From a virus, in IMG/VR virus record IMGVR_UViG_3300012936_000059, positions 1 through 36,561 of that record: DNA of 36,561 nt, one strand, 5' to 3'. Below are positions 3,027-33,846 of the stretch, in pieces. Under the pieces are notes generated by a model. That model saw only the letters and a list, made by a program, of their open reading frames with translations. It searched no databases and was not told where the DNA came from. How positions within the stretch are numbered: position 1 is the first letter of the stretch; each line of letters opens with the position of its first letter. Both the position numbers and the translations under genes were made by a program.

Positions 3027-3476
3027 ATGCCAAAAATTAGACATATGGATACGAAAGGTCTTGTTCAAGAAAGCGGCGCCGGCGTAACCTTTGAGCAAGG
3101 ACAAATTACTAAAACAATAAGTCACGTAACAGATACATTAACTCTTACAGCTGATGGTGCCACTGCATTCACACAATCTGCAACAAATAATTTACCTAAA
3201 GGCTGTAGAGTTTTAGGCTTTAAGGTCGAAGTTATTGAAGCCGGGAGCGTGGACTCAGCAATTTCAAAAATTGGACACAGTGGCGACTCTGATGCATTTA
3301 TTGCAAATGTTGGTCTTAACAATAATACTGTAGGATCAAAGTCAGGATTTGCTTTAACAGAAACAACAGTTCTTGACGCAGCACGAAAACTTAAAGTAGA
3401 ACACGCAGCAATTGCAGCTGGTGCAGGTAAAGCAGGTAAAGTAAGAGTTACAGCTTTAATTGAACAAGTTAGCTAA
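3027..3476 (+). CDS. Beta-rich virion protein, first of a tandem paralogous pair (decoration-like)
   Basis: 149 residues, strong AAAAGGAGA site. The sequence alternates short beta strands and small residues: a Thr/Ser-rich strand segment, LPKGCRVLGFKVEVIEAG near the middle, and a C-terminal AGKVRVTALIEQVS. The downstream gene shares this plan (LPAGTKVKAWKVEILTAG; PPKVRVSIMIEEII), so the two are paralogues from a tandem duplication. Size, lack of membrane or catalytic motifs, and position between head-type small genes and neck genes suggest a head-decoration or fibre-type structural protein. This is inference from context. Confidence 0.7.
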   Translation: MPKIRHMDTKGLVQESGAGVTFEQGQITKTISHVTDTLTLTADGATAFTQSATNNLPKGCRVLGFKVEVIEAGSVDSAISKIGHSGDSDAFIANVGLNNNTVGSKSGFALTETTVLDAARKLKVEHAAIAAGAGKAGKVRVTALIEQVS

Positions 3477-3492
3477 TCAATAGGAGAATGTA

Positions 3493-3954
3493 ATGAAAAT
3501 TGAACTGTCAAATACTAAAGGTGCGGTTACATTCCTTGAAGGCTCAGACTTAGATATTGTTCAAGGAGAAATAAATCTTAGAACAAGAATTCTTTCATCA
3601 GAAGTCACGCTGGTCGATGGCCAGGATGAAATTGATACAACTATTAATTTACCTGCCGGCACCAAAGTCAAGGCCTGGAAGGTAGAAATACTAACTGCAG
3701 GTGGTAATGCGGCAAACATAACAGCATTAGGCCAGGCACAAGCAGTTGCAGCAGGAGCAAACATAGCAGACTTTTCTGGCATTTTTGCGCTGGCCCAAAA
3801 TAGCGCTGCAGGTGCATCAGAACAAGGTACAGTTGCATCAGCAGGTGCAGCTGTCTTAGGTGCAGCAGATATTGATTTGTTTATGCAACATGCTGACCCA
3901 GGAGCAAATCCTCCAAAAGTAAGAGTCTCTATTATGATTGAAGAAATTATCTAA
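3493..3954 (+). CDS. Beta-rich virion protein, second of the tandem pair (decoration-like)
   Basis: 153 residues, AGGAG site seven bases before the ATG, 16 bases after its paralogue. It keeps the INLPAGTKVKAWKVEI core and the VRVS-I-IEE ending of its neighbour, while the middle (residues about 75-125) is an Ala/Gly-rich region that differs completely. The first twelve residues also differ. Conserved frame with divergent middle suggests a common fold with different exposed loops. It is the last gene before a strong terminator, closing this transcription unit. Confidence 0.7.
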   Translation: MKIELSNTKGAVTFLEGSDLDIVQGEINLRTRILSSEVTLVDGQDEIDTTINLPAGTKVKAWKVEILTAGGNAANITALGQAQAVAAGANIADFSGIFALAQNSAAGASEQGTVASAGAAVLGAADIDLFMQHADPGANPPKVRVSIMIEEII

Positions 3955-5627: not shown

Positions 5628-6284
5628 ATGGCAAGATTATTTTTAGGACAAAGAGAAGCAGACTTTTTTTCTGATATTTCAAAAGAATTGATTAAAGATG
5701 TTGCAGGGCAAAAAATATACTACTATACAGTGCGAGAAGATCTAAGTGATGTTCACGATGTATACGAAGAATCAATGCATAAAATATTTAATCCGCCTAC
5801 TGAAATAGAGTGTTTAGTTGAATGGCAGCCATCTGAAGTCAAAACAACACAATTTGGGCATGAGCAAATAAAAACAATTTCAGTCTTTATGCACAATAGA
5901 GATGTTATCGATAGAGACTTAAATATTCAGCAAGGTGATTACATATCTTACGGTGAATACTTTTTTGAAATTACATCTATAGTTTACGACAAATTAGTTT
6001 ACGGTCAAATAGAAAGAGTAACATCAATAAAGCTTGCATGTAAGCAAGCTCGTATTGAGCATATATTTAAAAATGCTATTGGCCCAACTTACGAAGCTTA
6101 TGTCGAAAGTGATGCGGTTCAAGTAGAGTTTGAGCAACAAAGAGGACAAACTGAGTCTGATGTTCGTCAGCTCGTTAAAGACGGTGTACTTGAAGAGCCT
6201 ATTTCAAAACCTAGAAAAGTTGCTAATGACGGAACTGTTAAAAGTGTAAATGGTGTAGGCTCTTCATTTTACGGAGATGATTAA
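5628..6284 (+). CDS. Neck/head-tail joining protein (gp14-like position)
   Basis: 218 residues, four bases after the previous stop. The N-terminal half contains YYYTVREDLSDVHDVYEESM and FNPPTEIECLVEWQ, followed by a beta-rich core (about 70-135) with QQGDYISYGEYFFEITSI, the kind of small barrel seen in head-tail stopper/joining proteins. The C-terminal 60 residues are polar and probably flexible. It overlaps the next start by one base (TAATG), so it is co-translated with the tail-completion gene. Neck function is inferred from fold pattern and order; direct gp14 homology is not established. Confidence 0.5.
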   Translation: MARLFLGQREADFFSDISKELIKDVAGQKIYYYTVREDLSDVHDVYEESMHKIFNPPTEIECLVEWQPSEVKTTQFGHEQIKTISVFMHNRDVIDRDLNIQQGDYISYGEYFFEITSIVYDKLVYGQIERVTSIKLACKQARIEHIFKNAIGPTYEAYVESDAVQVEFEQQRGQTESDVRQLVKDGVLEEPISKPRKVANDGTVKSVNGVGSSFYGDD

Positions 6285-7504
6285 TGACTACAAGATTTGA
6301 CAAAGAAAAAGAAGATAATAGCTCAATAGTCTTAGGATATGAAGGCTATTCTCATCCAGAACAATATACAATACCTTCTTGTGGACTAGAAGATTTAGAC
6401 TATGCGGTGTTTAATCTATTTGACAATCAGCTTCCTTTATATTATGAACATCAGGGTCAACAGAAAAAAATACCTGTTATTTTCGCTACAGGCGAAAGGT
6501 TTGCAATTTTAAGAAGAAACAAACCCTTGACAGATAAGACTGGTGCACTTGTTTTACCTTTAATTTCTATTACTAGAACTTCTCTTGAGAATACTCCTCA
6601 AAAAGGAATGGCTAATAACCAATTGTTTCCTGAAGTTTTAGTTAGAAGAATATCAAAAGATAACGTAAAATGGCGCCAGAAAAACAATTTTGAAGGATTT
6701 GAAAGTTTAAACAGCACAAAGAAAACAAACAAAACAGAATATAATCTTGCACCTCAAATAAAAAACAATATTTATGAAACAATAGAAATACCTCCTGTCA
6801 AGTATTTTGGTGCAACATATGAAATATCTCTTTGGAGTTCGTTTACACAACAAATGAATGATTTATTGACTACTATTATGAGTGCTTATACAATAAATCC
6901 AGGTCAACAATTTCGCATTGAAAGTAAAAAAGGATATTGGTTTCCAGCTTTTGTAGAGAGTAACTTTTCTCAAGATACGAATTATGCTGATTATACTGAC
7001 GCAGAAAGGTACATCAAGTACAATATGACTTTAAATGCAACAGGTTATATTCTTGCACCTAATATTTTAGGAGGAAAAGTTAGTCTTAAGTCTTTAGTAA
7101 GCGCACCAAATATTTCTTTTGAAACTCTTTTTTCAAACACAGATACTTCGCCAAACGTTGGTGGAATTTCTTCTAATGACCCTAACGCTAGAATATTAGA
7201 TAATATTTTAACTGAAAATTCTCCAAATATTTCTCAAAAAGTAGGCTATAAAGCAATCGATTCTATTACAGCTTTAAATAGTTACGACAAATCTTCAGCA
7301 CAAGTAACGGGTGAATCAGACTTGGAACCTTATGATACTTTTGGCAATATAAACACAAACGATACTAAAGTTAAAAAAGTAGCTATCGTTGACAAAGAAG
7401 GTAAAGTAGTTAATGTTAAAGCAAGCGTAAGTGCAAATGGTGAACTAGTATATGATCAAAAATACGCAGAAAAAATATTCAATATATCAAATTCAAACAA
7501 TTAA
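6284..7504 (+). CDS. Tail completion/terminator protein (T4 gp3/gp15-like)
   Basis: 406 residues, start overlapping the previous stop. A central domain has KKIPVIFATGERFAI (about 62-76), GALVLPLISITRT (about 87-100) and YEISLWSSFTQQMNDLLTTI (about 180-200), the arrangement I recognise from T4-type tail terminator and sheath-stabiliser proteins, which cap the tail and join it to the neck. The C-terminal 130 residues are polar and Ser/Asn-rich. It directly precedes the first sheath gene, as expected for this role. Family match is by pattern only. Confidence 0.5.
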   Translation: MTTRFDKEKEDNSSIVLGYEGYSHPEQYTIPSCGLEDLDYAVFNLFDNQLPLYYEHQGQQKKIPVIFATGERFAILRRNKPLTDKTGALVLPLISITRTSLENTPQKGMANNQLFPEVLVRRISKDNVKWRQKNNFEGFESLNSTKKTNKTEYNLAPQIKNNIYETIEIPPVKYFGATYEISLWSSFTQQMNDLLTTIMSAYTINPGQQFRIESKKGYWFPAFVESNFSQDTNYADYTDAERYIKYNMTLNATGYILAPNILGGKVSLKSLVSAPNISFETLFSNTDTSPNVGGISSNDPNARILDNILTENSPNISQKVGYKAIDSITALNSYDKSSAQVTGESDLEPYDTFGNINTNDTKVKKVAIVDKEGKVVNVKASVSANGELVYDQKYAEKIFNISNSNN

Positions 7505-7571: not shown

Positions 7572-10500
7572 ATGGCAGAGCAGACATTTAAGTCTCCAGG
7601 CTTTTTTGAACGAGAAATAGAAGTAATCAAAAGGCCTATAGTAAAAAGAAATGATGTTCCAGTAGGTGTTATTGGAATGGCGCGCAGAGGACCTGCATTT
7701 GTACCAACTACAGTTTATTCTGCAGATGAGTTTGCAAGAGTTTTTGGGCGCCCAGATAGAAGAATGATGAGTAATCACGCAGTTTCTGAGTTTTTTAGAA
7801 ATCAAGGAAAGGCACTTACTTTTTGTAGAACACTAGGTAGTGGTTACTTTGATGAAGGCACAGGTAACACAATTAACGCAGGTTTTAAATTTGTCTCTTC
7901 AGCAGCAAATAACAAAAAACACGGTTCAGTTCACTTTATTGTTGCAAAGCATCAATTAGCAAACTCTGAATTTTTATCACTAGGCAGCTTTAATGATAAT
8001 GACTCACACACTACAAATATGGATAGTGACTCAGCTGGCGGTTTAGCTGGAGCTGCAGGTGATGGTGTAGTTGAGTTAATTAGAGCAATGATTTTTACTC
8101 ACAAAGACTACGCAGTAACTGTAGGTTTGGAAGATAATGCAGACGATCACACAATAATAACAGACAATAAATTTACAATAAGATTAAGAACACAATCAGA
8201 AATTACTAACAACGAAGAAGGAATAGCATATTCTGTTTCTTTAGACCCTTTAAGAGATGATTACATTTCTAAAGTATTAAACATAGATCCTCTTTCTTTT
8301 GACGAAAAAAAGCACTATTTGTATGCAGACTTTCCAGTTGATGAAGTTGTTGCTAGTTCTGATACAAAAGCAGTTGGTGTTTTACACCCGAATGATACTT
8401 GGGACAGTAAATTTAACAATTTTCAAAGTAAGTTTACAACTCCAGAAACTCCTAGTTTTATATCGCAACCTTTTGGTGATAAAGAATATGATCTTTTTCA
8501 TATTGAGTCTTTGGATGATGGTTCATATGCTTCGACAAAATATAAAATATCAATAACAGGACTTCGAGCTAGCACAGATCCAACTGATAATTATGGAACC
8601 TTTAACTTAACAGTTAGAGATTTGAGAGACACAGATGAATCTCCTATTGTTTATGAGTCTTATACAAATTGTTCTCTAAATCCAGTAGCAGATAACTACA
8701 TTGCAAAAATAATTGGTGATCAAAAACTTTACTATAACTACGAAGCTGATGGTGAAGAAAAACGTCTAGTTAGAGAAGGAACTTTTAAAAATAAATCAAC
8801 TCGAATTAGAGTTGTTATGAGCAGTGATGTTCAAATGCAAGAAGTCCCAGAAAAAGCTTTACCTTTTGGATTTAGAGGTGTTCCTGCACTTTTATTAAAT
8901 GATGATGGCACAGATTCGAGTACAAATTTAAGAATGTCGTCTAATAGAGATATTGGCAATTCTGGTTTAGACCACGCTGTAATGCCTCCTTTACCTTATA
9001 GATTTAAAATAACTAAAGGCACAGTTAAAACTGGTCAAAGCTATGCACAAAATTATACGGGTCAAGCTTCAACAGCAGAATCAGTTGATTTAAATCTTCA
9101 CTGGGGATTAATGACTACAACTATCGAAGATATAGACCAGCCTAATAGCGGAACTAACTTTAATTATTTGATAGAAAATTATACTAAGTTTTTAAGTGCT
9201 GATTATAGTGTTTGGTCTAAACAAAAAGCTGACAAGCATAATAATAATAAATTTAGTTTAGCAAAAGTATCTCTAAACAAAGATACTTTGTCCGATGTTG
9301 ACGGTACTATTAATGATATATTTAAAGATGCAGTATATATTAGAAATGCAGATGCTGACAATAGTGTGATGTATGATGCATCTCAACATTTGGTCAAAAT
9401 GGGTGGCGATACTAGTGATAGCTTAGCTCAAGATACTGATAGAGTTTCTTTGGCAAAGCTTTTAGCTGAAGATGCTACTAAGTTTAATAAATATAGTTTA
9501 GTAGCCAAATTTACTGCGCCCTTTTATGGAGGTTTTGACGGTCTAAATATTTTAGATAGCGATTCATATTATATGACAGATCTTGCTTCTTCGACCGAGC
9601 AAGACCTATACAGAGCTGATTTGGCTAACGGCAAAGCACACAGTGACGGCTTTAGCAGCGGAATAAGAGGCACTTTAAAGTCTGAGTCTAATCCTACTAT
9701 GCAAGGCGAAGAAAACAAAAACAACGTTATTTCTTCATATAGAAATGCGATCGAAGTTATGACTGATGAAATGGTTGTTAATCATAACGTTATTACTGTG
9801 CCTGGCATAAGAGATCCTTTTTTAACAGACTACGTTAAAAATAGAGTAGAAGCTTACGGTAGATCAATCTTTTTAATGGACATTCCTCAGTACGACAAGC
9901 AAACTTTAAGAATTTTTGTTAGCGAAAGAGGCATTGCAGATGCAAGACCAGATGTTGGAGAAACATCAGCACAATTTGAGTTAAGAGAAGTTAATTCTTC
10001 TTATGTTGCCTCATACTTTCCAGACGCATCAGTATTAGATAGCAGTGACAGTGATGAAGGTTCAGTAAACGTTAGAAGATCAGTTAGAGTAAGTCCATCT
10101 GTTGTTGCGTTAGGTGCACTTGCCAAAACAGACGCAGTTTCTCAACCTTGGTTTGCACCTGCTGGTTTTGCGAGAGGTGCTCTTGATACAATTACTTCAA
10201 TAGACGTAAGACTCAATGCAGAAGATCGTGATACTTTATATGAATCACGAATTAATCCTATTGCAAACTTTCCAAATAAACAGTTTGTTATATTTGGACA
10301 GAAAACAGCACAGCTTGCAAGAACTGCACTTGATAGAGTTAATGTTAGAAGATTAGTTTTAGAAGTTAAAAGGCAAATAGGCATAACTGCACAACGTTTG
10401 CTTTTTGAGCAAAATAATAAAGCAACTAGAGACTCTTTTGTTTCTACTGCATCACAACGACTTGCAGACATACAGCTCGGTCAAGGTATTGAAGATTTTA

Positions 10501-10646
10501 GAGTTGTAATGGATGATACAAATAACTCTGCTGAAGATGTTGACAATAATAGACTTAACGGTAAAATTATTATTGTTCCGACGCGTGCTGTAGAGTTTAT
10601 TGCAATTGATTTTGTAATAACTAATGCAGGCGTTGAATTTCCCTAA
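7572..10646 (+). CDS. Contractile tail sheath protein 1
   Basis: 1024 residues behind TTAGGAGA. The N-terminus (SPGFFEREIEVIKRPIVK, then VGVIGMARRGPAFVP) is the standard sheath arm and first domain. The C-terminus has PWFAPAGFARG, then FVIFGQKTAQ, ALDRVNVRRLVLEVKRQI and the closing EFIAIDFVITNAGVEF, the hallmark of the phage tail-sheath family that forms the contractile outer tube around gp19-type tubes. T4 gp18 has 659 residues, so this protein carries about 360 extra, mainly between residues 110 and 700. The DDGSYAST segment and following beta domain recur in both sheath paralogues downstream. It keeps all conserved ends and is probably the standard sheath subunit. Confidence 0.9.
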   Translation: MAEQTFKSPGFFEREIEVIKRPIVKRNDVPVGVIGMARRGPAFVPTTVYSADEFARVFGRPDRRMMSNHAVSEFFRNQGKALTFCRTLGSGYFDEGTGNTINAGFKFVSSAANNKKHGSVHFIVAKHQLANSEFLSLGSFNDNDSHTTNMDSDSAGGLAGAAGDGVVELIRAMIFTHKDYAVTVGLEDNADDHTIITDNKFTIRLRTQSEITNNEEGIAYSVSLDPLRDDYISKVLNIDPLSFDEKKHYLYADFPVDEVVASSDTKAVGVLHPNDTWDSKFNNFQSKFTTPETPSFISQPFGDKEYDLFHIESLDDGSYASTKYKISITGLRASTDPTDNYGTFNLTVRDLRDTDESPIVYESYTNCSLNPVADNYIAKIIGDQKLYYNYEADGEEKRLVREGTFKNKSTRIRVVMSSDVQMQEVPEKALPFGFRGVPALLLNDDGTDSSTNLRMSSNRDIGNSGLDHAVMPPLPYRFKITKGTVKTGQSYAQNYTGQASTAESVDLNLHWGLMTTTIEDIDQPNSGTNFNYLIENYTKFLSADYSVWSKQKADKHNNNKFSLAKVSLNKDTLSDVDGTINDIFKDAVYIRNADADNSVMYDASQHLVKMGGDTSDSLAQDTDRVSLAKLLAEDATKFNKYSLVAKFTAPFYGGFDGLNILDSDSYYMTDLASSTEQDLYRADLANGKAHSDGFSSGIRGTLKSESNPTMQGEENKNNVISSYRNAIEVMTDEMVVNHNVITVPGIRDPFLTDYVKNRVEAYGRSIFLMDIPQYDKQTLRIFVSERGIADARPDVGETSAQFELREVNSSYVASYFPDASVLDSSDSDEGSVNVRRSVRVSPSVVALGALAKTDAVSQPWFAPAGFARGALDTITSIDVRLNAEDRDTLYESRINPIANFPNKQFVIFGQKTAQLARTALDRVNVRRLVLEVKRQIGITAQRLLFEQNNKATRDSFVSTASQRLADIQLGQGIEDFRVVMDDTNNSAEDVDNNRLNGKIIIVPTRAVEFIAIDFVITNAGVEFP

Positions 10647-10661
10647 TATATAGATATAAGA
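10644..10661 (+). promoter_or_regulatory. Late-promoter-like motif before sheath 2
   Basis: TAATATATAGATATAAGA begins at the stop codon of sheath 1 and lies 41 bases before the sheath 2 ATG. It contains TATAAGAATA (10655-10664), close to the T4 late consensus. The same stretch recurs before the tube gene (15386), giving modest support. Confidence 0.35.
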
Positions 10662-10684
10662 ATAAAAAACAGGAGACTATAGAT

Positions 10685-13600
10685 ATGGCTGGACAAGGCT
10701 CAGCAAGAGTAACTCTTAATGAAATAGATTTATCACAAGTCAGAGACCCAGAACAACTTCCTCAAGGTGCTCCAGCTGCTGTTGTCGGTCCAGCAAAACG
10801 TGGACCTGCATTTGTTCCCAAGACATTTGCAACAATACAGCAGTTTAACGAAACATTTGGTTCGTTACAAAAAGTAAGCAAAGACAGCAATGCTAATCTT
10901 TTTGGGCCTTTGGCTCTTAACGAATGGATGAGAAATGCACAAGCAGGGACTTTTTTGCGTGTCCTTGGTGTAGGTGATGGTAACGCAAAAGCATCAAGCG
11001 GCAGGGTAACAGATGCTGGATTTGTTGTTGGATCTAATACTACTTATGATAGTAATAACGAACTACAAAGAAACCCGTACGCAACGTCGTTAAATGTTAA
11101 TAATGAAGATGCTGCACTTAAAACTGCAAGAACTCATTTTCTTGGCTGTTTTATGAAAGATCAAGGACAAAGCACATTTCTACAAGATGCAGGCATTCAA
11201 GCATCAGAAGGCCCCGGATCTATTAAAATACGACTAACAAATGACAAAAGACCTCACGACAATAGCACACTTAAGTTAACTTTTATTAACGTAGCATCAC
11301 TAGACGCCACTGACAATAGGACTTTTACATTTACAGGAGACCCTACTGCCAACGACAATGTTAACAATGCAAGTGATCATATCGTAACTGTTTTGTTTGA
11401 TTTAGCTACACTAATAGACACAGATACAACAGCTACAGCGGCACACTTAAATGCAACTTTAGTTCCAGATACACTAGACGCTAAGATTGAAAATATAGCA
11501 AGTGACGCGTTAGTACCAGGACTTAGATATAAAGTTACACGAGTTGATGCAAATGACTGGAGTGCTTGTAGTAATGCACAAAACTGGTTTGGTGACGATA
11601 TAGCAAACGCAGCAGTAGGGGATGAATTTATTGCTACGTCGGTAGGAGCCAACGGAAAAGGTGAAGTTGAAACATCTCAAGACGAGGCAAATGCAACTTT
11701 AACGATCGTATCAGTTTATAATGCTGAAGCTACAAACAACAACGAAGTAGAATTTAATATAGTAACAAATCCTGATACTGACTTTGCTGACGTTTTAGTT
11801 GGTAGCAAGACAGCTTCTGTTGAATCTCAAGAAATATCATTTGGCGGCGGAGGTACTGAAAGTGCTTTTGCAGACATTCAATTTGCAGGCAACCCAAATG
11901 CAGATGATGCCTTAACAATTACAGCATTAACTAATGACGGAGATGGAAGTTTTACAGATAATGATGTTGTCTATACGTTTAAAAACGATTTGACAAACAA
12001 AAATGACAATGACAAAATTTCAAATGGCGATGTCGTTACAGACACGTACGAAGTAACAAATGCAGGTCAAGTTGAAGTTAAAATTGCAGAAAATTATACA
12101 GATACAGTTTTAAATTTAAAAGCTGCATTTAAAAGAGTTGCATCACAAGCAGGCACAGGCGCTGAGTCTGGTCAAGCAGCAGGATCTGGTACTTCTACAA
12201 ATCATGAAGGCAAGTTAAATGTTTCTGACATTGATCAGGACTCTTTTAGAATTGTGCAAGTTTTAAAAGGAACAGTTGGAAGAAGTAAGGAAGATGGAGA
12301 TGATCCGATTGTTAACGATGCGACCAATGTCACAATATTGGGTGCTAGCGATGCATCAAATACTGCTGCTCCAATTGCTAATGGTTCTGGTCACTACAAA
12401 GAAGGACAAGATGATTTTGCATCTCTAACTGTTACATTACTAGGACAGCCTAACAATGATGATCAAATAACGTTTGTTGTAAGAAATAGTGCAAACAACG
12501 GCAACTTAACTGAGACTTATGTTTTTAAGCCAGCTAATGGTAATGTTAATGCTAATGACGACGGTAGCAATAACACAATTGTTTTAATTGGCACAACTTT
12601 AGATGAAACACTGGTAAATCTAAGATCTGCGATTATAACTAATAGTGTAGCTGGCGATAAAATTAGAGAAGGTCTTAACACAGACGTCAACAATACTTAC
12701 TCATCAAGTTTAGTTTTAAATGATGAACAAAACAGTTTGACTATTATTGCAAACGCAGCTGACGCTCAAAAAGGTGCACAGTCAAACTTAACACAGACTT
12801 TCGGCGTTTCTGATGCAGTAACACTTTCAAATATTGATGGTGCAAGTGTAGTAGGAAACTTTGGTAAAAAAGTGGAAAACTTTACAGGTGGAGGTGGATC
12901 TGCTGAGCCTGTTGTTCGTGGTGTTCTTATGTCACCTCAAGGGGTAATACCTACACTTAAAACAACAAACGCTGCTTATGATTCAAGTCCGACAGATGAA
13001 AATAGAAGAAAGTTAGTTGTTAAAGTTAACGACACTGATTTACTTGACTTTGGTACTGATGCATCTACTAACTTGATAGGATATCAAATAGGCAATGTAA
13101 CAACAACAGATGATCAGACTTTTGAGCTAATATTAAATGGATTTAAGAGCGAAGAAAACTCTTCTTCTTTGATATGCTCTTTTAATCCAGAGAGCACTAA
13201 TTATTTTGCTAAAGTTATGAATACTGATCCAGAAAAAATCGAAGAAAGAGGACATTATTTACATGCGCATTGGGATATTGATCCTAGAGTAGCAAAAGCT
13301 GATTTGAGTGGTGTTTTAAGTCAAGCAGGTAGTTTAATAACTAGTGATATGGCAGGATTCTGTATGCACTCTGTAGGAGATAGAGCTGTAGAAGGTGTTG
13401 TTGGAGGTGTTGATGTACCAAATACACCTGATTTTGAGTCTTTTGACTCAAGATATCGTACTGCTAAGTCTCCTTGGATTATGTCACAGAAAAGTGGCGG
13501 TTCTTCTAAAAAGTTGTTTAGATTACATTCTCTTGATGATGGTAAGTCTGGAAATGATAGATTTAGAATTTTAATTTCAAATATACGTTCTGGAGAAAAC

Positions 13601-15388
13601 GCCAGTGATTTTGGAATTTTTGATTTAACTTTAGAGTCGTTTGATAGTGATCCTATAAGTGGAGAAAAGCTAATTCAATGGAGTAGTTTATCACTTGACC
13701 CAGAAAGCAAAAATTACATTGGTCGCGTAATTGGTGACAAGCATATGTATTATGACTTTGATAGATTACAAAGCAAGCAAAGACTTGTTGAAGAAGGTGA
13801 CTATGAAGTTAGAAACAAATATGTTCGTGTTGAAGTATCCGTAGAATTGGAGACAGCTGATGGCGCTTCATGGGCAAGATCTGCTTTGCCTTGCGGGTTT
13901 AAAGAATATAAGACTCTTAATTTGTCGCCTAGAGCAGGATTGTTTGCTGAGCTTGGCACAGATCGAGAAGGCGCTGGCAGATTGCTTCCAGCAGGCTCCT
14001 TTAACTCGCTTAAGGTTTTACCTTTGCCTTTTGTAAAGCACATAACAAGAAAATCTGGATTAACAACAGAAACATCAGAAGCTTTGGCATGGGGTGTTAA
14101 GTTTGCAAAGAAGCAAAGAGATGAGCCACATCGAGAAATTGGTGAGATTCGTTTTAACCCAAGCATTATTTCTTGGACCAAGTTTTTTCCAGACATGGGT
14201 GCTTATCCTGTTTCTGTTGACTCTCAAGAAGAATTTTCTTTAGAGAACATTGCTTGGAACGAATCTGATTGGTCAACTTCTGAGTATGTAAGATCAGGAA
14301 ATGTTAGTGACTTACCAAGTGGAAAACAATACTTAGAATTAGCTTCTGCAGCATCAAGTGGTCGCAACGTAAGATTCCTTAAGTTCCGTTGTATAATGCA
14401 AGGTGGTTTTGATGGTCTAAATATCTTTAACAAAGAAAAAGCCGCAATGAGTTCAATTGCAGCATTTAGAGAAGCAAACGAAGAAGTAGCTGACTCCAAC
14501 GTGTTTACAGGTCCAACTATTGTTGCTTATCAAAGAGCAGTAGATGTTTTGGCAGATAAAAGTGCTACAGAATTTCAGCTATTAGCAATACCAGGCATAC
14601 GTGAACCAGTAGTTACTGACTATGCAATTACTGCATGTGAGAGTAGATTTGATGCAATGCTTGTAATGGACATAGAAGAATATAGCAGACTTAATGCAGT
14701 TATTTTAGATGATACTAAACCAAGTGTTAGTAAAACAATTTCTAAATTCTCTGATAGAAGACTAGATACTTCATTTGCAGCTGCATATTTCCCAGATGTT
14801 ATTATTCCTAGACCTTCTAACGGTTCACCTCTTCAAGTACCACCATCAGTAGGTATGTTAGGTGTAATGAGTCTTAATGATACACTTGCTGATCCTTGGT
14901 TTGCACCTGCTGGTCTAAGAAGAGGAAGAATAAGAGCACAAAACGTTAAAGTTCAAATGAATAGAGACACACTTAATGATCTTTACGATGCAGACATTAA
15001 TCCTATTTATGAGCCGGCTGGTAGAAGTGGTCAGGTTTTTGCCTTTGGTCAAAAAACACTGCTACAAAATCAATCAGCTCTCGATAGAATTAATGTTAGA
15101 CGTCTTTTAATTAACATTAGAAGAAAAGTTAAAGCAGTTGCAAACACTCTTTTGTTTGAGCCAAATAGAGCATCAACTTTAGCTAAGTTTAACGCTTTAG
15201 TTGATCCAATAATGTCAGAAGTTAAAGCTCGTCAAGGCGTTGAAAGATACAAGGTACAAATTGACACAACTACAACTACAGAAAACGATGTTTTAAATAA
15301 TACAATTAGAGGCAAGATTTACTTGCAGCCTACTAAGTCCGTAGAGTTTATTTCGCTTGATTTCGTAGTAACAAACTCAATTGATTAA
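10685..15388 (+). CDS. Giant contractile tail sheath protein 2 with modular insertion
   Basis: 1567 residues behind ACAGGAG. The sheath N-domain is intact (VVGPAKRGPAFVPKTFA, then LNEWMRNAQAGTFLRVLG), as is the C-domain (PWFAPAGLRRG, FAFGQKTLLQ, SALDRINVRRLLINIRRKV, EFISLDFVVTN). Compared with sheath 1, about 600 residues are added between about 160 and 830. This insertion holds repeated beta-rich modules of one pattern (about 392-480: FADIQFAGNPNADDALTI; about 575-665: FASLTVTLLGQPNNDDQITF), with Gly4 hinges at FGGGGT and TGGGGS. Their Asp/Asn/Thr-rich composition resembles surface-exposed decoration domains. Size is far beyond usual sheath length (roughly 350-700). It may form a specialised ring or alternate with sheath 1. 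Confidence 0.88.
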   Translation: MAGQGSARVTLNEIDLSQVRDPEQLPQGAPAAVVGPAKRGPAFVPKTFATIQQFNETFGSLQKVSKDSNANLFGPLALNEWMRNAQAGTFLRVLGVGDGNAKASSGRVTDAGFVVGSNTTYDSNNELQRNPYATSLNVNNEDAALKTARTHFLGCFMKDQGQSTFLQDAGIQASEGPGSIKIRLTNDKRPHDNSTLKLTFINVASLDATDNRTFTFTGDPTANDNVNNASDHIVTVLFDLATLIDTDTTATAAHLNATLVPDTLDAKIENIASDALVPGLRYKVTRVDANDWSACSNAQNWFGDDIANAAVGDEFIATSVGANGKGEVETSQDEANATLTIVSVYNAEATNNNEVEFNIVTNPDTDFADVLVGSKTASVESQEISFGGGGTESAFADIQFAGNPNADDALTITALTNDGDGSFTDNDVVYTFKNDLTNKNDNDKISNGDVVTDTYEVTNAGQVEVKIAENYTDTVLNLKAAFKRVASQAGTGAESGQAAGSGTSTNHEGKLNVSDIDQDSFRIVQVLKGTVGRSKEDGDDPIVNDATNVTILGASDASNTAAPIANGSGHYKEGQDDFASLTVTLLGQPNNDDQITFVVRNSANNGNLTETYVFKPANGNVNANDDGSNNTIVLIGTTLDETLVNLRSAIITNSVAGDKIREGLNTDVNNTYSSSLVLNDEQNSLTIIANAADAQKGAQSNLTQTFGVSDAVTLSNIDGASVVGNFGKKVENFTGGGGSAEPVVRGVLMSPQGVIPTLKTTNAAYDSSPTDENRRKLVVKVNDTDLLDFGTDASTNLIGYQIGNVTTTDDQTFELILNGFKSEENSSSLICSFNPESTNYFAKVMNTDPEKIEERGHYLHAHWDIDPRVAKADLSGVLSQAGSLITSDMAGFCMHSVGDRAVEGVVGGVDVPNTPDFESFDSRYRTAKSPWIMSQKSGGSSKKLFRLHSLDDGKSGNDRFRILISNIRSGENASDFGIFDLTLESFDSDPISGEKLIQWSSLSLDPESKNYIGRVIGDKHMYYDFDRLQSKQRLVEEGDYEVRNKYVRVEVSVELETADGASWARSALPCGFKEYKTLNLSPRAGLFAELGTDREGAGRLLPAGSFNSLKVLPLPFVKHITRKSGLTTETSEALAWGVKFAKKQRDEPHREIGEIRFNPSIISWTKFFPDMGAYPVSVDSQEEFSLENIAWNESDWSTSEYVRSGNVSDLPSGKQYLELASAASSGRNVRFLKFRCIMQGGFDGLNIFNKEKAAMSSIAAFREANEEVADSNVFTGPTIVAYQRAVDVLADKSATEFQLLAIPGIREPVVTDYAITACESRFDAMLVMDIEEYSRLNAVILDDTKPSVSKTISKFSDRRLDTSFAAAYFPDVIIPRPSNGSPLQVPPSVGMLGVMSLNDTLADPWFAPAGLRRGRIRAQNVKVQMNRDTLNDLYDADINPIYEPAGRSGQVFAFGQKTLLQNQSALDRINVRRLLINIRRKVKAVANTLLFEPNRASTLAKFNALVDPIMSEVKARQGVERYKVQIDTTTTTENDVLNNTIRGKIYLQPTKSVEFISLDFVVTNSID

Positions 15389-15406
15389 TATATAGATATA
15401 TAAAGA
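15386..15406 (+). promoter_or_regulatory. Late-promoter-like motif before the tail tube gene
   Basis: TAATATATAGATATA is identical to the start of the motif at 10644 and is followed by TATAAAGA (15399-15406). It begins at the sheath 2 stop codon, 40 bases before the tube ATG. A separate promoter for the highly expressed tube gene is reasonable. Confidence 0.35.
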
Positions 15407-15425
15407 ATTTTAGGAGAATAAAGAA

Positions 15426-15914
15426 ATGGCAGAGACACTTTCAGTCACGGAAATGATTCCAAATAAGTTTGAGCCAAAAAGAAAGAATCGATGGATCTTT
15501 GCGATTGAAGGCATCGATGCTTTTCTAATTAAGTCAGCAGCTCGACCACAATACTCAACAAACGAGACAACAATAAACTTTATGAATAGCACAAGATACC
15601 TTGCAGGAAAGACAACTTTTAGTTCAATAAACGTTGTTCTTTATGATCCAATTGCTCCAAGCGGTGCTCAGCAAGTTATGGAATGGGTTAGAACTCACTT
15701 TGAGTCTGTTAGTGGCCGTAGTGGTTATGCAGATTTCTATAAGAGAGATTGTCAACTCAAGATGTTGGATCCTGTAGGTACTGTTGTTGAACTTTGGGAT
15801 ATTAAAGGCGCTTATCTTCAAAGTGCTAACTTTGGTGACATTGGATACGATGATGATGCGCCAATGGAAATTACTATGGAACTTAGATTTGATAACTGCG
15901 TACTTCAGTACTAA
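15426..15914 (+). CDS. Tail tube protein (T4 gp19-like)
   Basis: 162 residues, close to the 163 of T4 gp19, behind TTTAGGAGA. Features of the family are visible: the N-terminal FEPKRKNRWIFAIEGIDAF, KSAARPQYS, the central VVLYDPIAPSGAQQVMEWV and the closing LQSANFGDIGYDDDAPMEIT followed by a short beta strand. Tube subunits stack as hexamer rings around the tape measure and carry DNA through the tail. It is the only tube gene in the window, although there are three sheath genes. It is followed by a long hairpin that could limit read-through. Confidence 0.92.
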   Translation: MAETLSVTEMIPNKFEPKRKNRWIFAIEGIDAFLIKSAARPQYSTNETTINFMNSTRYLAGKTTFSSINVVLYDPIAPSGAQQVMEWVRTHFESVSGRSGYADFYKRDCQLKMLDPVGTVVELWDIKGAYLQSANFGDIGYDDDAPMEITMELRFDNCVLQY

Positions 15915-15918
15915 TCTA

Positions 15919-15966
15919 ATTGCTTGTTAGTTTCTGTTTAAACGCTAGCAGCAATTAACAAGCAAT
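15919..15966 (+). terminator. Long hairpin after the tail tube gene
   Basis: ATTGCTTGTTA (15919-15929) and TAACAAGCAAT (15956-15966) form a perfect 11-bp stem with a 26-base loop. There is no proper T tract after it, so it is either a weak terminator or an mRNA-stabilising 3' structure for the abundant tube message. Confidence 0.5.
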
Positions 15967-16012
15967 CTATATAATTTAATTAATTTAGACTAAAAAGTTT
16001 TCTAAACCTATT

Positions 16013-16020
16013 TATAAATA
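16013..16020 (+). promoter_or_regulatory. T4-type late promoter TATAAATA
   Basis: An exact match to the T4 late promoter octamer, 39 bases before the ATG of sheath 3 and just after the hairpin that closes the tube gene. In T4 this site is used by the gp55 sigma factor with gp45/gp33. Position and exactness support real use; the octamer alone can occur by chance in AT-rich DNA. Confidence 0.55.
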
Positions 16021-16051
16021 CAAATAGACATAAAGAAAATAGGTTTTGCTA

Positions 16052-19000
16052 ATGCGGTTAACAAACAATACACCTTACAGCGTCAATATAATAAAGTCAG
16101 ATCAGGTAAAATCTGAAAAATTTTCTTCTTTAACATCTGATACATTGGGTATTGCTGGACCTTCTATAAAAGGTCCAGCATTTGTACCAAAAATAATAAG
16201 CGACTTTGAAGAAAATAGTTCTGCAACAGGAATCCTTAATACATTTGAAGACACATTTGGAAAAATAACTGACTATAAACAAATGCCTAACTCAATTGCA
16301 GCTGTTAATGAATGGTTTTCTCAAGGCGGTGCACAAGTAGCTTATGTTAGAATTCTTGGAGCAGGCAAAAATGGTATACCTAACGAACAAGGAATTGTTG
16401 AAGGAAGTGGATTTTTAGTAAATGATCTAGTCGTTAGCGGATCATCTACTCCTGGTTTTGCAGGAAACAATTCTTTTTCTACAAATAATAGTCAGGAAAA
16501 CATGCCAGGTAAAACTGTTCTATTATCTTCTTTTTTCAAACAAAAACAAAAATATAAAGAAACAAGTGAAAACACAATACACATATCCTCATTTGACGAC
16601 TATTTATCTCAGAGTAATTTAATACAAAACGAAGACGATATATGTGAGCTAATTACACATACTATTTTTTGCGCTCGAGGATGTGACATTAACATTGATG
16701 AGACTGAACTGGATACTCCTATTAGCATATTACATTTAAAAAACAATGATTTTAATACTTTAAAAGACTTAAGTGACGATAGAAGATTTACTCTAAATAA
16801 TCAAAAGACTCGATATAGAGAGAAATATTTAAATACACATTATAAACACTTTTTAGATAAAGGTCATGTTGTTTATTCAAAGTTTTTACCTTTTCCTGCA
16901 ATGATCAACAAACATGGATTAAAAGAAGCAGGAGATTTAAATGATAATTTTCATAATTTACTATTATCTACAAATGATTACCAACTAGAAGATTTTCAGA
17001 GTAAGTTTAAAACTGCTCAAACGCCTTGGATAGTATCACAACCTTTAAATAGAGAAGGAATTGAAGATAATAGAGAAAATTTAATTGAAAAATGTCTAAA
17101 TTTATTTAAGATCTATGCAATTGATGATGGCACTGCAGGAAATAAATTTAGAATAAAAATAACACCTCAAGTCTTAGGTAATCGCAAGAATAAAACATTT
17201 TCAAAGTTTACTTTAACCTTGTCAATGTACAATAAAAACAACAACAGCTTTAAAAAATTATTGCAATATAGAAACTTAAATTTAAATCCTGATAGTAAAG
17301 ACTATATTGCAAGAAGAATTGGTACTGAGCATGAATACTACGACTTTAATTTACAAAAAATTGTAAGTAAAGGTAATTATTCTTTAACTAACAATTACAT
17401 TAGAGTAGAAGTTAATAAAAATATCGAGTATCATAAAGTTTCGATCTATGAAATTATTCCTTGCGGCTTTATGCCTTACCCTAAAATCGATTATAGTATA
17501 AAACAAGTGCCTTTGCACTATTCAACAAATCTTCTAAGAAAAAGTAGAATAGAAAAAGATTTGTCACAAAATTCTTCTTGGGGTGTTGCTTTTGATAATT
17601 TTAGTATTACATCACAGCAAGAAATTGTTGAAGGGCGTCAAGTTATATTTACATGTAGTTTTGATTCAGGATCATCAGAAGATCAAAAAGCACATTACTA
17701 CGATTATACAAAATACTATCAGGATAATTACATACAAAAGAATAGAAATAACTGGCACTATGCAACAAGCTCTCAAGAAGATACTACAAATTCTTTTTTT
17801 CATCTTGAAAAAATACTATATCCAGACATTAACAGTATTGATAATGTTAAAAAATGGATATATGCAATATACAGAAAAGATGGTAAAAAAACTTCTGATA
17901 TTACTTCAATAGGCAATAATATTTTTTCGTATAAGTACGTTGATATTGAAAAATTACTTAAATCAGACAGCACAGATGATAGTATAAATTCAGAATTTCT
18001 CTCGTTTGAGCTCTTTACATTTGGCGGTTTTGATGGTGTCAATTTACTAGACTACGATAAAAAACGAATGAATCAAAATGCTTTTGTCAAAGAGCTTGAA
18101 AACGAAGAAAACAGTGAAAATCCTAATAATAATAAGATGCCTACTTATAATTCTTTTAGAATTTCTCATAATATTTTAGTTGACGATTCAAATTGTGACA
18201 TTGATATACTTTCATTTCCTGATGTTGGTCACCACAAGTTTAATAAAAGCATTTCAGTACTTTCAAATGAAAATAGAAAATATCTGTCTGTTTTAAATGT
18301 TCCAGAATTTTCTGCGTCTGGTATTTTAAAAAACTATGATTTTTATGATATAAATTATAATTTACCTGATTCACAAGAACAACAGAGTCTAAATGGATCA
18401 ATTCAGCAAGATTTAAAAAATGGAACTAATGTAACAGTTGACAGTACAATTCAAAATAACTACAACAACAGATTTACTTTTAATGTTTGCAATACATTTG
18501 AAGCAGCTTTAAGATTTAATAGTATTGTACATGCTAGACACGTAATACAACCTTCAGTTTTGGCAATAAGAGCAATTGCAGGAAACATATCTTCTCCGTT
18601 AAGCATTAATAGAGTTTTTACAAATAGCGGTATAGATTACATAAAAGTTTATAATCTTAACTTTAATAGAAGAAATAATAATAATTTTGATAGAGTTGTT
18701 AAAAACTCTCTTTTAGGAAATACTAATATAAACTACATTGTCCCAGACACAATAGACAATCAGACGTTTTTAAATTTAAATTCACAAAATACTTCTATAA
18801 ACTTAAGAAATAGTCTTTCTAGACACGCACATAATACTAGAATAGTGAACAATATTAAAAAAAATATAAAATACTTAATTTACTTAGAAGATATATTGTT
18901 TAATAATATTTCTAAAATAATTAATCTAAATAATTCTTTAAATTTTAAAATAGATGAATTATTAAATAATTACAAAGAAAACAACACAATAAAAGATTAC

Positions 19001-19201
19001 TATGTAAGTTTTAACTCTGGGTCTTCTGATTCTGAAATTAGTGATGCATATAAAAATATTATGAGAACAAAAATAGCAATATGTCTATATGGTAACAGCA
19101 CTGAAAATATTCAAGAATTTAGATTAGATGATTTATTTAATATTACACAAAATAATTTAACAGAAACAGCAGACCAAGATATAGTAATTAATACCATATA
19201 A
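16052..19201 (+). CDS. Divergent tail sheath paralogue 3
   Basis: 1049 residues from ATG 16052; a TTG six bases earlier is in frame but less likely. The N-domain is clearly sheath-like (LGIAGPSIKGPAFVPK, VNEWFSQGGAQVAYVRILGAG), and the middle shares the AIDDGTAGNKFRI and YYDFNLQKIVSKGNYSL domain with sheaths 1 and 2. The C-terminus departs: PWFAPAG and FGQKT are missing, and the helix equivalent to ALDRINVRR is reduced to SLSRHAHNTRIVNNIKK, in an Asn/Ile/Lys-rich, very AT-rich stretch. Because the C-domain normally makes the inner sheath and tube contacts, this copy may cap or terminate the sheath or bind the baseplate rather than polymerise. It has its own late promoter. Confidence 0.82.
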   Translation: MRLTNNTPYSVNIIKSDQVKSEKFSSLTSDTLGIAGPSIKGPAFVPKIISDFEENSSATGILNTFEDTFGKITDYKQMPNSIAAVNEWFSQGGAQVAYVRILGAGKNGIPNEQGIVEGSGFLVNDLVVSGSSTPGFAGNNSFSTNNSQENMPGKTVLLSSFFKQKQKYKETSENTIHISSFDDYLSQSNLIQNEDDICELITHTIFCARGCDINIDETELDTPISILHLKNNDFNTLKDLSDDRRFTLNNQKTRYREKYLNTHYKHFLDKGHVVYSKFLPFPAMINKHGLKEAGDLNDNFHNLLLSTNDYQLEDFQSKFKTAQTPWIVSQPLNREGIEDNRENLIEKCLNLFKIYAIDDGTAGNKFRIKITPQVLGNRKNKTFSKFTLTLSMYNKNNNSFKKLLQYRNLNLNPDSKDYIARRIGTEHEYYDFNLQKIVSKGNYSLTNNYIRVEVNKNIEYHKVSIYEIIPCGFMPYPKIDYSIKQVPLHYSTNLLRKSRIEKDLSQNSSWGVAFDNFSITSQQEIVEGRQVIFTCSFDSGSSEDQKAHYYDYTKYYQDNYIQKNRNNWHYATSSQEDTTNSFFHLEKILYPDINSIDNVKKWIYAIYRKDGKKTSDITSIGNNIFSYKYVDIEKLLKSDSTDDSINSEFLSFELFTFGGFDGVNLLDYDKKRMNQNAFVKELENEENSENPNNNKMPTYNSFRISHNILVDDSNCDIDILSFPDVGHHKFNKSISVLSNENRKYLSVLNVPEFSASGILKNYDFYDINYNLPDSQEQQSLNGSIQQDLKNGTNVTVDSTIQNNYNNRFTFNVCNTFEAALRFNSIVHARHVIQPSVLAIRAIAGNISSPLSINRVFTNSGIDYIKVYNLNFNRRNNNNFDRVVKNSLLGNTNINYIVPDTIDNQTFLNLNSQNTSINLRNSLSRHAHNTRIVNNIKKNIKYLIYLEDILFNNISKIINLNNSLNFKIDELLNNYKENNTIKDYYVSFNSGSSDSEISDAYKNIMRTKIAICLYGNSTENIQEFRLDDLFNITQNNLTETADQDIVINTI

Positions 19202-19225: not shown

Positions 19226-20068
19226 ATGAACAAACTAGATAAGCCTATTTCTCCTGAAGAGATTGACAAGAAGGGTCCTATCCAAATACAAAATGTTGCA
19301 AAAGATGAATTTGGATTAGATATTCCTGTAGAAAATGTTCCTTTGCCTTCTATGGGAATAATCTATAATAAGGATAGCTCACTTTATAACAAAGAAGTAT
19401 TACAAATAAGACCAATGACAGCAAGAGAAGAAGATATTCTTACATCAAGAGCTTATATAAAAGATGGAACTGTAATATCAAAGCTTATCGATAGTTGTCT
19501 TGTTGACAAAACTATCAATTCAGAAGATTTAATTTCAGGTGATAGAACAGCACTTATGGTTGCGTTAAGAATTACAGGCTATGGTGCAGACTATGAAATT
19601 GAAGTATCTTGCCCGGAATGCGGTGCAACAAACAAGTCAACTTTTGACTTGGCTTCCTTACCTATCAAAAGACTTAAAGTAGAGCCTGTTGGTGATGGCG
19701 AAAACTTATTTGAAGTTGTTTTGCCTGTTACAAAAAAGAAAGTTCGCGTAAAGTTTCTTACAGGACATGACGAAAAAGAAATGATGATTATTAACGAAAG
19801 AAAAAAGAAAAAAGGATTTAGTACAGATACTTCTGTTACTGATAGATTAACTAGATCAATACAGTCAGTTGATGATATTACAGATAAAAATAAAATTTCA
19901 TTTTTTGTTAAAAATCTTCCTGTTAGAGATTCTCTTGCATTGCGTAGATTTTTAGATAAACAAGAGCCGGGCGTTGAAATGAAAAGTAACTTAAGATGTA
20001 ACAGCTGCTTTGAAGAAAGTGAGGTTGACTTACCAATTGGAACTTCGTTTTTTTGGCCTGACAGCTGA
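19226..20068 (+). CDS. Baseplate hub/assembly protein, T4 gp26-like, with zinc-ribbon cysteines
   Basis: 280 residues, CTGGAG site 10 bases upstream. Residues about 40-90 (LPSMGIIYNKDSSLYNKEVLQIRPMTAREEDIL) and the DRTALMVALRITGYG segment match the T4 gp26-type baseplate family. CPEC at 129-132 and CNSC at 258-261 form a likely zinc-binding pair interrupted by a beta domain. T4 gp26 (208 residues) acts in hub assembly; here the gene sits just upstream of the tape measure, a position held in lambda-like phages by tail-assembly chaperones. Its 3' end overlaps a second ORF in another frame over a run of seven T. Confidence 0.75.
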   Translation: MNKLDKPISPEEIDKKGPIQIQNVAKDEFGLDIPVENVPLPSMGIIYNKDSSLYNKEVLQIRPMTAREEDILTSRAYIKDGTVISKLIDSCLVDKTINSEDLISGDRTALMVALRITGYGADYEIEVSCPECGATNKSTFDLASLPIKRLKVEPVGDGENLFEVVLPVTKKKVRVKFLTGHDEKEMMIINERKKKKGFSTDTSVTDRLTRSIQSVDDITDKNKISFFVKNLPVRDSLALRRFLDKQEPGVEMKSNLRCNSCFEESEVDLPIGTSFFWPDS

Positions 20069-32781: not shown

Positions 32782-33846
32782 ATGAACGTATATAATAAGA
32801 TAAAAATTAGCAATATTTATAATATAAAAAATCATAAAGTTTTTCAAAAATATATTAAATTTACTAACAATTATGTAGACTTTGTAGACTTTAAAAACTT
32901 ACTTCCGACTTCTGTATATGATACATTTATTAAAACAGTAGATAATGATTACTTAAAGTCTCAAGAATTAGATTCAAATTGTAACTTTATACAGTTATAC
33001 AACCAACACAGTTTTTTGTTAGATAAAATCAAAGAAGCTAAAATTAACAAGTTAGCTTATAAAGCTTTTCTGGAAATAGAAAAAAACGATACTGTTGTTT
33101 CTATTTTAAAAACTTTTCGACCAAAAAAGTTTTATGCTGATCGGGTTAATTACAAATTAAACAGTAATGTAACGGGTAGGTTAGTTGTAAAAGAAGGTCC
33201 TAATATTTTAACTTTGCCAAAAAGATGTAGATCAATTATAGAGTCTAGATTTAAAGACGGTAAAATAGTATGTATTGACTTTAATAATTTAGAGCCTAGA
33301 ATATGTCTAAAGCTGTCTGGTAAAGATGCGGGTAAAGACATTTATTTAGAGATAAACGACTTATTAAGTTTTGACGCGGATAGAAGTGTTATAAAAAGAG
33401 CTATAATATCTGTTTTATATGGGGCCAGTTATAAATCACTTGACAATATATCAGCAGCTAGATCTTTAGAACTTTTTGAGTGTGTAAAAAATTATTTTGA
33501 TATAGATAATGTTTTAAAAATAGCTGAAAATATTGACAGTTTCGGTATTAGAAGAAATTATTATGGAAGACCTCTTTGGAATCTAGAAGAAACAAAAAGT
33601 AATATTATTTTAAACAATTACGTTCAATCATCAGCTGTAGACTTGGCACTAAATTACTTTTATCAACTAACAAATAATATAGATATAAACTTGGCTGTGC
33701 CAATTTTTATATTACATGACGCTATAATATTTGATGTAAATAAAGAGTATGAAGAGGCTTTAGAAAAAGAAGTAAAGCTTGGATATCATGATAAAAATTT
33801 AGGCTTCTTTCCTCTTTCTTTAGACATATTTAATAATCTATCTTAG
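32782..33846 (+). CDS. Compact family A DNA polymerase-like protein
   Basis: 354 residues. The polymerase motifs occur in order: TGR (131-133); motif A DFNNLEPR with catalytic Asp166 and steric-gate Glu171; motif B RSVIKRAIISVLYG with Arg201, Lys205 and Tyr213; YGRP (261-264); NNYVQSSAVD with Gln282; motif C LHDA with Asp313. The protein would extend the 3' end of a primer using dNTPs. There is no 3'-5' exonuclease or 5' nuclease domain, and only about 120 residues precede the palm, so the thumb is reduced. Unusual residues are Ile209 where Phe/Tyr is usual in motif B, and Ala for Glu in VHDE. No ribosome site is visible. It could be an active minimal polymerase, a subunit of a split enzyme, or a diverged remnant; intact catalytic aspartates favour activity. 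Confidence 0.8.
   Translation: MNVYNKIKISNIYNIKNHKVFQKYIKFTNNYVDFVDFKNLLPTSVYDTFIKTVDNDYLKSQELDSNCNFIQLYNQHSFLLDKIKEAKINKLAYKAFLEIEKNDTVVSILKTFRPKKFYADRVNYKLNSNVTGRLVVKEGPNILTLPKRCRSIIESRFKDGKIVCIDFNNLEPRICLKLSGKDAGKDIYLEINDLLSFDADRSVIKRAIISVLYGASYKSLDNISAARSLELFECVKNYFDIDNVLKIAENIDSFGIRRNYYGRPLWNLEETKSNIILNNYVQSSAVDLALNYFYQLTNNIDINLAVPIFILHDAIIFDVNKEYEEALEKEVKLGYHDKNLGFFPLSLDIFNNLS

Follow-up and report, generated by a model that had tools for sequence, protein, structure and literature searches.

Three tail sheath paralogues around a single tube gene in a group of contractile-tailed phages

Introduction

In the textbook picture, a contractile tail has a single sheath protein surrounding a single tube protein. 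A 36.6-kb virus record, IMGVR_UViG_3300012936_000059, which is probably a fragment and was analysed over its entire length (36,561 nucleotides; the window), departs from this picture, as three sheath-like genes lie around one tube gene. The question raised is whether all three are sheaths. The original prediction, made from the window alone, was that of a heteromeric or segmented sheath.

The tail module and its surroundings

The tail genes, all on the + strand, make up a neck-tail module of T4 type. It begins with a gp15-like tail terminator or sheath stabiliser (6284..7504, 406 aa); the Pfam match (T4-gp15_tss, E 7.8e-4) is below the gathering cut-off, and the gene has the same position in relatives. 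Next are sheath paralogue 1, or SH1 (7572..10646, 1024 aa), sheath paralogue 2, or SH2 (10685..15388, 1567 aa), a gp19-type tail tube gene (15426..15914, 162 aa; PHROG 4542 tail tube, E 6.7e-29) and the divergent sheath paralogue SH3 (16052..19201, 1049 aa). The three sheath genes and one tube gene that had been predicted are thus confirmed. The longest ORF for SH3 begins at TTG 16046, but ATG 16052 was taken as its start. Directly 3' of SH3 lies a gp26-like baseplate hub gene (19226..20068; Pfam T4_baseplate, E 4.9e-19), followed by a 1235-aa ORF that we take for the tape measure by its place and length.

Other genes of the window were also noted. A small protein encoded on the - strand, against the direction of the tail genes (137-508), carries a signal like that of lipoproteins (FSGC) and an extended acidic repeat (EEVDMEVPDEE). 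Three small ORFs at 605-1811, two of which overlap, encode membrane segments or a signal peptide along with coiled coils, and are possibly a spanin-like lysis cassette. Two adjacent look-alike proteins of 149 and 153 aa (3027-3954) are possible decoration proteins. A short family-A DNA polymerase-like ORF of 354 aa is present directly after the tail genes (32782-33846); in Microcystis phage Mel-JY01, a DNA polymerase I gene of about the same size likewise lies close to the tail module.

Three members of the sheath family

SH1 matches Phage_sheath_1 and Phage_sheath_1C in Pfam (PF04984/PF17482) and PHROG 23 (E 2.5e-53), and its profile matches T4 gp18 in the PDB (E 2.6e-44). SH2 matches Phage_sheath_1C (PF17482, E 1.1e-6), as do all 20 of 20 SH2 members, and PHROG 23 (E 4.1e-40). 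Both are bona fide sheaths. By BLASTP, SH1 and SH2 share 29% identity over 843 columns (E 2e-90), SH1 and SH3 26% (E 6e-27), and SH2 and SH3 25% (E 2e-41).

SH3 by itself has no match in Pfam or PHROG. Similarly, when viral contigs were scanned with the single SH3 sequence, nothing was found; its relatives were retrieved with the SH3 alignment as the query. At the level of families, SH3 aligns with SH1 end to end over 901 columns (hhalign, probability 100, E 1.9e-70), and its core holds many invariant residues. The AlphaFold model of SH3 (pTM 0.69, mean pLDDT 66) retrieved solely contractile-tail sheath proteins at E < 0.001 in Foldseek, T4 gp18 being at the top (E 1.2e-9). The large size and partial uncertainty of the model keep the TM-scores low (0.3-0.5, depending on the target), and the fold was assigned from the E-values and the profile match jointly. 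SH3 is a full-length sheath homologue that has kept the sheath fold. Homology to both the core and the C-terminal domain of the gp18 family is, therefore, found in all three proteins, through Pfam and PHROG for SH1 and SH2, and through profile-profile comparison and fold for SH3.

Conserved order and one tube gene

Some 240 loci were retrieved by scans in which SH1, the tube and SH3 served as queries. The order gp15-SH1-SH2-tube-SH3-hub was observed in about 20 distinct viral contigs belonging to one clade, which rejects an assembly accident as the source of the three sheaths. Contractile-tailed phages with three sheath genes are a widespread, mostly marine group. Counting only distinct loci that show gp15 as well as the gene following the tube, one sheath gene was seen in 5 loci from more distant relatives, SH1-SH2-tube-hub in 33 loci from sister lineages, and SH1-SH2-tube-SH3-hub in 19, with 2 more having SH3 and an SH1 split in two ORFs. 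These counts are not estimates of abundance, as similarity was the basis for collecting the loci and carriers of SH3 are over-represented through the SH3 scan. Wherever the context is visible, SH3 never occurs without SH2 and SH1. Whole-record searches of 14 relatives (27 to 484 kb) found exactly one tube gene in each, and no sheath gene outside the tail cluster. The series is, therefore, one, two and three sheath genes, always with one tube gene.

Within the three-sheath group, the loci L225 and L231 have SH1 split into 670+220 aa and 282+642 aa, respectively, by a frameshift, an intron or a sequencing error, and their SH3 is much more divergent. One two-sheath relative (L241; contig NHDW01000006.1, 305,838 bases) is binned as a Methylococcaceae genome and is probably a mis-binned jumbo phage genome. 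The metagenome bins of the relatives belong to unrelated bacteria, and hence no host is claimed.

Duplication history

In a tree of SH1, SH2 and tube together, all 20 of 20 three-sheath loci form one clade with a support of 1.0, and 32 two-sheath loci fall outside it. This tree was midpoint-rooted, and the support for the two-sheath side as a clade is just 0.55. A phylogeny of the three proteins had been suggested as a check on the original prediction. With outgroups included, SH1 (UFBoot 100), SH2 (88) and SH3 (100) each form a clade of their own. SH3 lies on the SH2 side, the two being grouped with a support of 99. SH3 as the sister of SH1 was rejected (AU p 0.001). Its late derivation from SH2 inside the three-sheath clade was not rejected (AU p 0.186), so SH3 may have arisen either by an early duplication plus loss or by a late duplication. 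On these trees, the sheath gene was duplicated once to give SH1 and SH2, and once for SH3. The first sheath of the huge phage LR756508 was rejected as an SH2 orthologue (AU p 3e-5).

Terminal arms and the SH2 insert

The N- and C-terminal arms of sheath proteins form the handshake between neighbours. It is through this conserved 'handshake' that the sheath subunits are interwoven (PMC8894135). In SH1, the conservation is 0.89 for the first 25 residues (MAEQTFKSPGFFEREIE..., near invariant, 7572..7646) and also 0.89 for the last 30, against a mean of 0.68. The corresponding values for SH2 are 0.82 and 0.93 against 0.53; in both proteins, no other regions are as well conserved as the two arms. 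In SH3 they are 0.38 and 0.37, both under the mean of 0.44. A C-arm profile, made only from sheaths outside the SH1/SH2/SH3 family (mostly single-sheath relatives, together with both LR756508 sheaths), gave a median of 94 bits for SH1, 83 for SH2 and 6 for SH3. The N-arm profile is less clean, since its 60-residue target takes in part of the conserved core. SH3 has, by these comparisons, lost the conserved C-terminal arm. Its last 75 aa (18974..19198) are without the motif, and it is, therefore, named here a sheath paralogue and not a proven linking subunit. The claim that the C-termini differ thus stands for this last part, and falls for the rest of the SH3 C-terminal part, which aligns to SH1 throughout. 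The AlphaFold model of SH1 was poor (pTM 0.37) and was not used, so the arms are not comparable in 3D.

Differing insertions had also been foreseen, and SH2 bears them out. SH1 is nearly constant in length in the family, mostly around 1000-1100 aa. The length of SH2 varies between 968 and 1783 aa, a spread caused by a variable insert (approximately residues 175-735, 11207..12889) that is patchy between phages: by BLASTP it has patchy matches in other SH2s and is nearly absent from the shortest ones (968-1005 aa). No Pfam domain was found within the insert, and across the SH2s there were just two marginal Gp18_domIII_N matches. In other sheaths, extra domains extend outwards (PMC8894135), and roles in stability or adsorption have been proposed for them (PMC9230969). 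By analogy, the SH2 insert is probably on the outside of the sheath.

Rates, selection and translation signals

Over the same genome pairs, the mean identity is 0.82 for the tube, 0.61 for the C-terminal 650 aa of SH2, 0.59 for SH1 and 0.34 for SH3. SH3 is the fastest-evolving of the three sheaths; its dN/dS in close pairs is 0.11-0.20, which denotes purifying selection, and it is, therefore, constrained and functional. In the window, its GC content is 0.27 vs 0.35-0.39 for SH1, SH2 and the tube, and the protein is Asn-rich.

The ribosome-binding site of SH3 in the window is weak, with only TAGG (16040..16051), and its anti-SD duplex is -3.1 kcal/mol vs -7.3 for SH1, -7.4 for SH2 and -7.3 for the tube. 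In the family, the predicted anti-Shine-Dalgarno pairing is -7.1 for SH1, -7.0 for SH2, -7.3 for the tube, -7.1 for the hub and -3.8 kcal/mol for SH3 (from 58 distinct starts; internal ATG background -1.7). In 45 of 47 loci the SH3 site is weaker than the tube site, with a paired p of 3e-9 that overstates the independence of loci related to each other. The strength of the site is an imperfect proxy for copy number, as the hub and gp15 genes, whose products are low-copy in T4, have strong sites too.

A T4-type late promoter, TATAAATA, at 16013 in the tube-SH3 gap was rejected, being no commoner than chance in the window and not conserved, with a presence in 6 of 79 gaps. Searches for intrinsic terminators and promoters were uninformative in a sequence this rich in AT. 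Two inverted repeats were seen by eye in the gap (15918-16046), one of which overlaps the weak ribosome-binding site of SH3.

A proposed division of labour among the sheath proteins

With about an even chance in its favour, the best explanation is a two-component sheath of SH1 and SH2 with a specialised, low-copy SH3, which most likely makes one end ring. Phage PaBG offers a precedent for the two-component sheath, and Pvc3 and Pvc4 of the contractile injection systems offer one for the end ring. SH1 and SH2 are both intact, have strong ribosome-binding sites, are always adjacent and are retained together across a large divergence, and a heteromeric sheath is for this reason their best reading. 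They would be the major, arm-linked subunits of the virion, co-polymerising round one type of tube, and SH2 would in addition present its phage-specific insert, probably outside. SH3, a paralogue from the SH2 side, keeps the sheath core but lacks the C-terminal arm that links neighbours. Since this arm is absent, SH3 would most likely form one special ring at an end of the sheath and not the body, and the gene order favours the baseplate side. The usual baseplate-side starter of the sheath is gp25. As gp25 was found in SH3-bearing genomes (four hits, two of them below or near the Pfam cut-off), SH3 as its replacement was rejected, and SH3 would act alongside it. Against this explanation, gp25 already starts and gp15 ends the sheath, which leaves no need for a further ring at either end; moreover, SH3 could be an assembly factor, and SH1 and SH2 could make separate segments instead of mixing. 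The fuller scheme, in which two co-polymerising body subunits and an arm-less end-ring isoform arose stepwise through one, two and three genes with the tube remaining single, is put forward tentatively, as slightly less probable than its opposite.

The fast evolution, weak ribosome-binding site and lost C-arm of SH3, its lack of a Pfam match and the position of its gene beside the baseplate hub would also suit a protein outside the sheath, such as an assembly chaperone, or a baseplate or fibre-attachment protein with a borrowed fold. The entire core fold is, however, retained end to end with its many invariant residues, and we consider this reading unlikely, at about one chance in four. Somewhat less likely still is a segmented sheath, in which SH1 and SH2 remain unmixed in different stretches or rings and SH3 makes a third. 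The PVC sheath proteins do take different ring numbers, with 6 chains apiece for Pvc3 and Pvc4 in the baseplate structure 6j0n and 30 chains of Pvc2 over three entries; but the ribosome-binding sites of SH1 and SH2 are equal and their arms intact, and neither resembles a minor ring component. Of the sheath originally predicted, the heteromeric form is thus kept for SH1 and SH2, and SH3 fits a specialised low-copy role. That a single sheath works, the remaining copies being redundant or in decay, or else artefacts of assembly, is very improbable: SH3 is indeed very divergent, but the genes are intact in tens of independent contigs and vertically inherited in one clade, and SH3 has its invariant residues and low dN/dS.

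Comparison with known systems

Two sheath proteins in the group of PaBG and three in the AFP/PVC injection systems are known already. In Pseudomonas phage PaBG, both sheath proteins are present in the structural proteome (PMC7412058) and make a two-component sheath (Kurochkina 2018, doi 10.1016/j.virol.2017.12.010). Like the SH1 and SH2 genes, they are a paralogous pair arising from gene duplication. PaBG differs in having two sheaths and not three, in their smaller size (547 aa for one), and in that its products, gp76 and gp213, come from genes that are not adjacent, unlike SH1 and SH2. The one PaBG sheath included in the tree (L087) falls outside the whole SH1/SH2/SH3 family. Two sheath copies have also been reported in 'some phage genomes' (PMC9230969). 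Phage LR756508 (484 kb) has two nearby sheath genes and one tube, by an independent duplication; duplication of the sheath gene has thus also occurred independently elsewhere, and probably in PaBG too (PMC7412058). T4 gp18, Mel-JY01 and Flavobacterium phage immuto share the same fold with one sheath gene, and Mel-JY01 also has the order gp15-sheath-tube-hub.

A literature search covering few subscription journals found no paper pairing 'three tail sheath' with 'phage', which does not prove novelty. AFP and PVC have three sheath paralogues (Afp2-4, Pvc2-4), as in the window. However, AFP possesses more than one tube protein (Afp1, 5 and 7) and the phages here have one, and the window encodes a phage tail with T4-type neck, hub and gp15 genes and a separate sheath lineage. 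A clade with a twice-duplicated sheath, in which one copy has lost its linking arm, is widespread. The one-, two- and three-sheath series offers a natural test of the ways in which contraction, ring identity and surface display may be divided between subunits. For phages, the clade also points to an independent origin of positional sheath isoforms, which are known from the injection systems.
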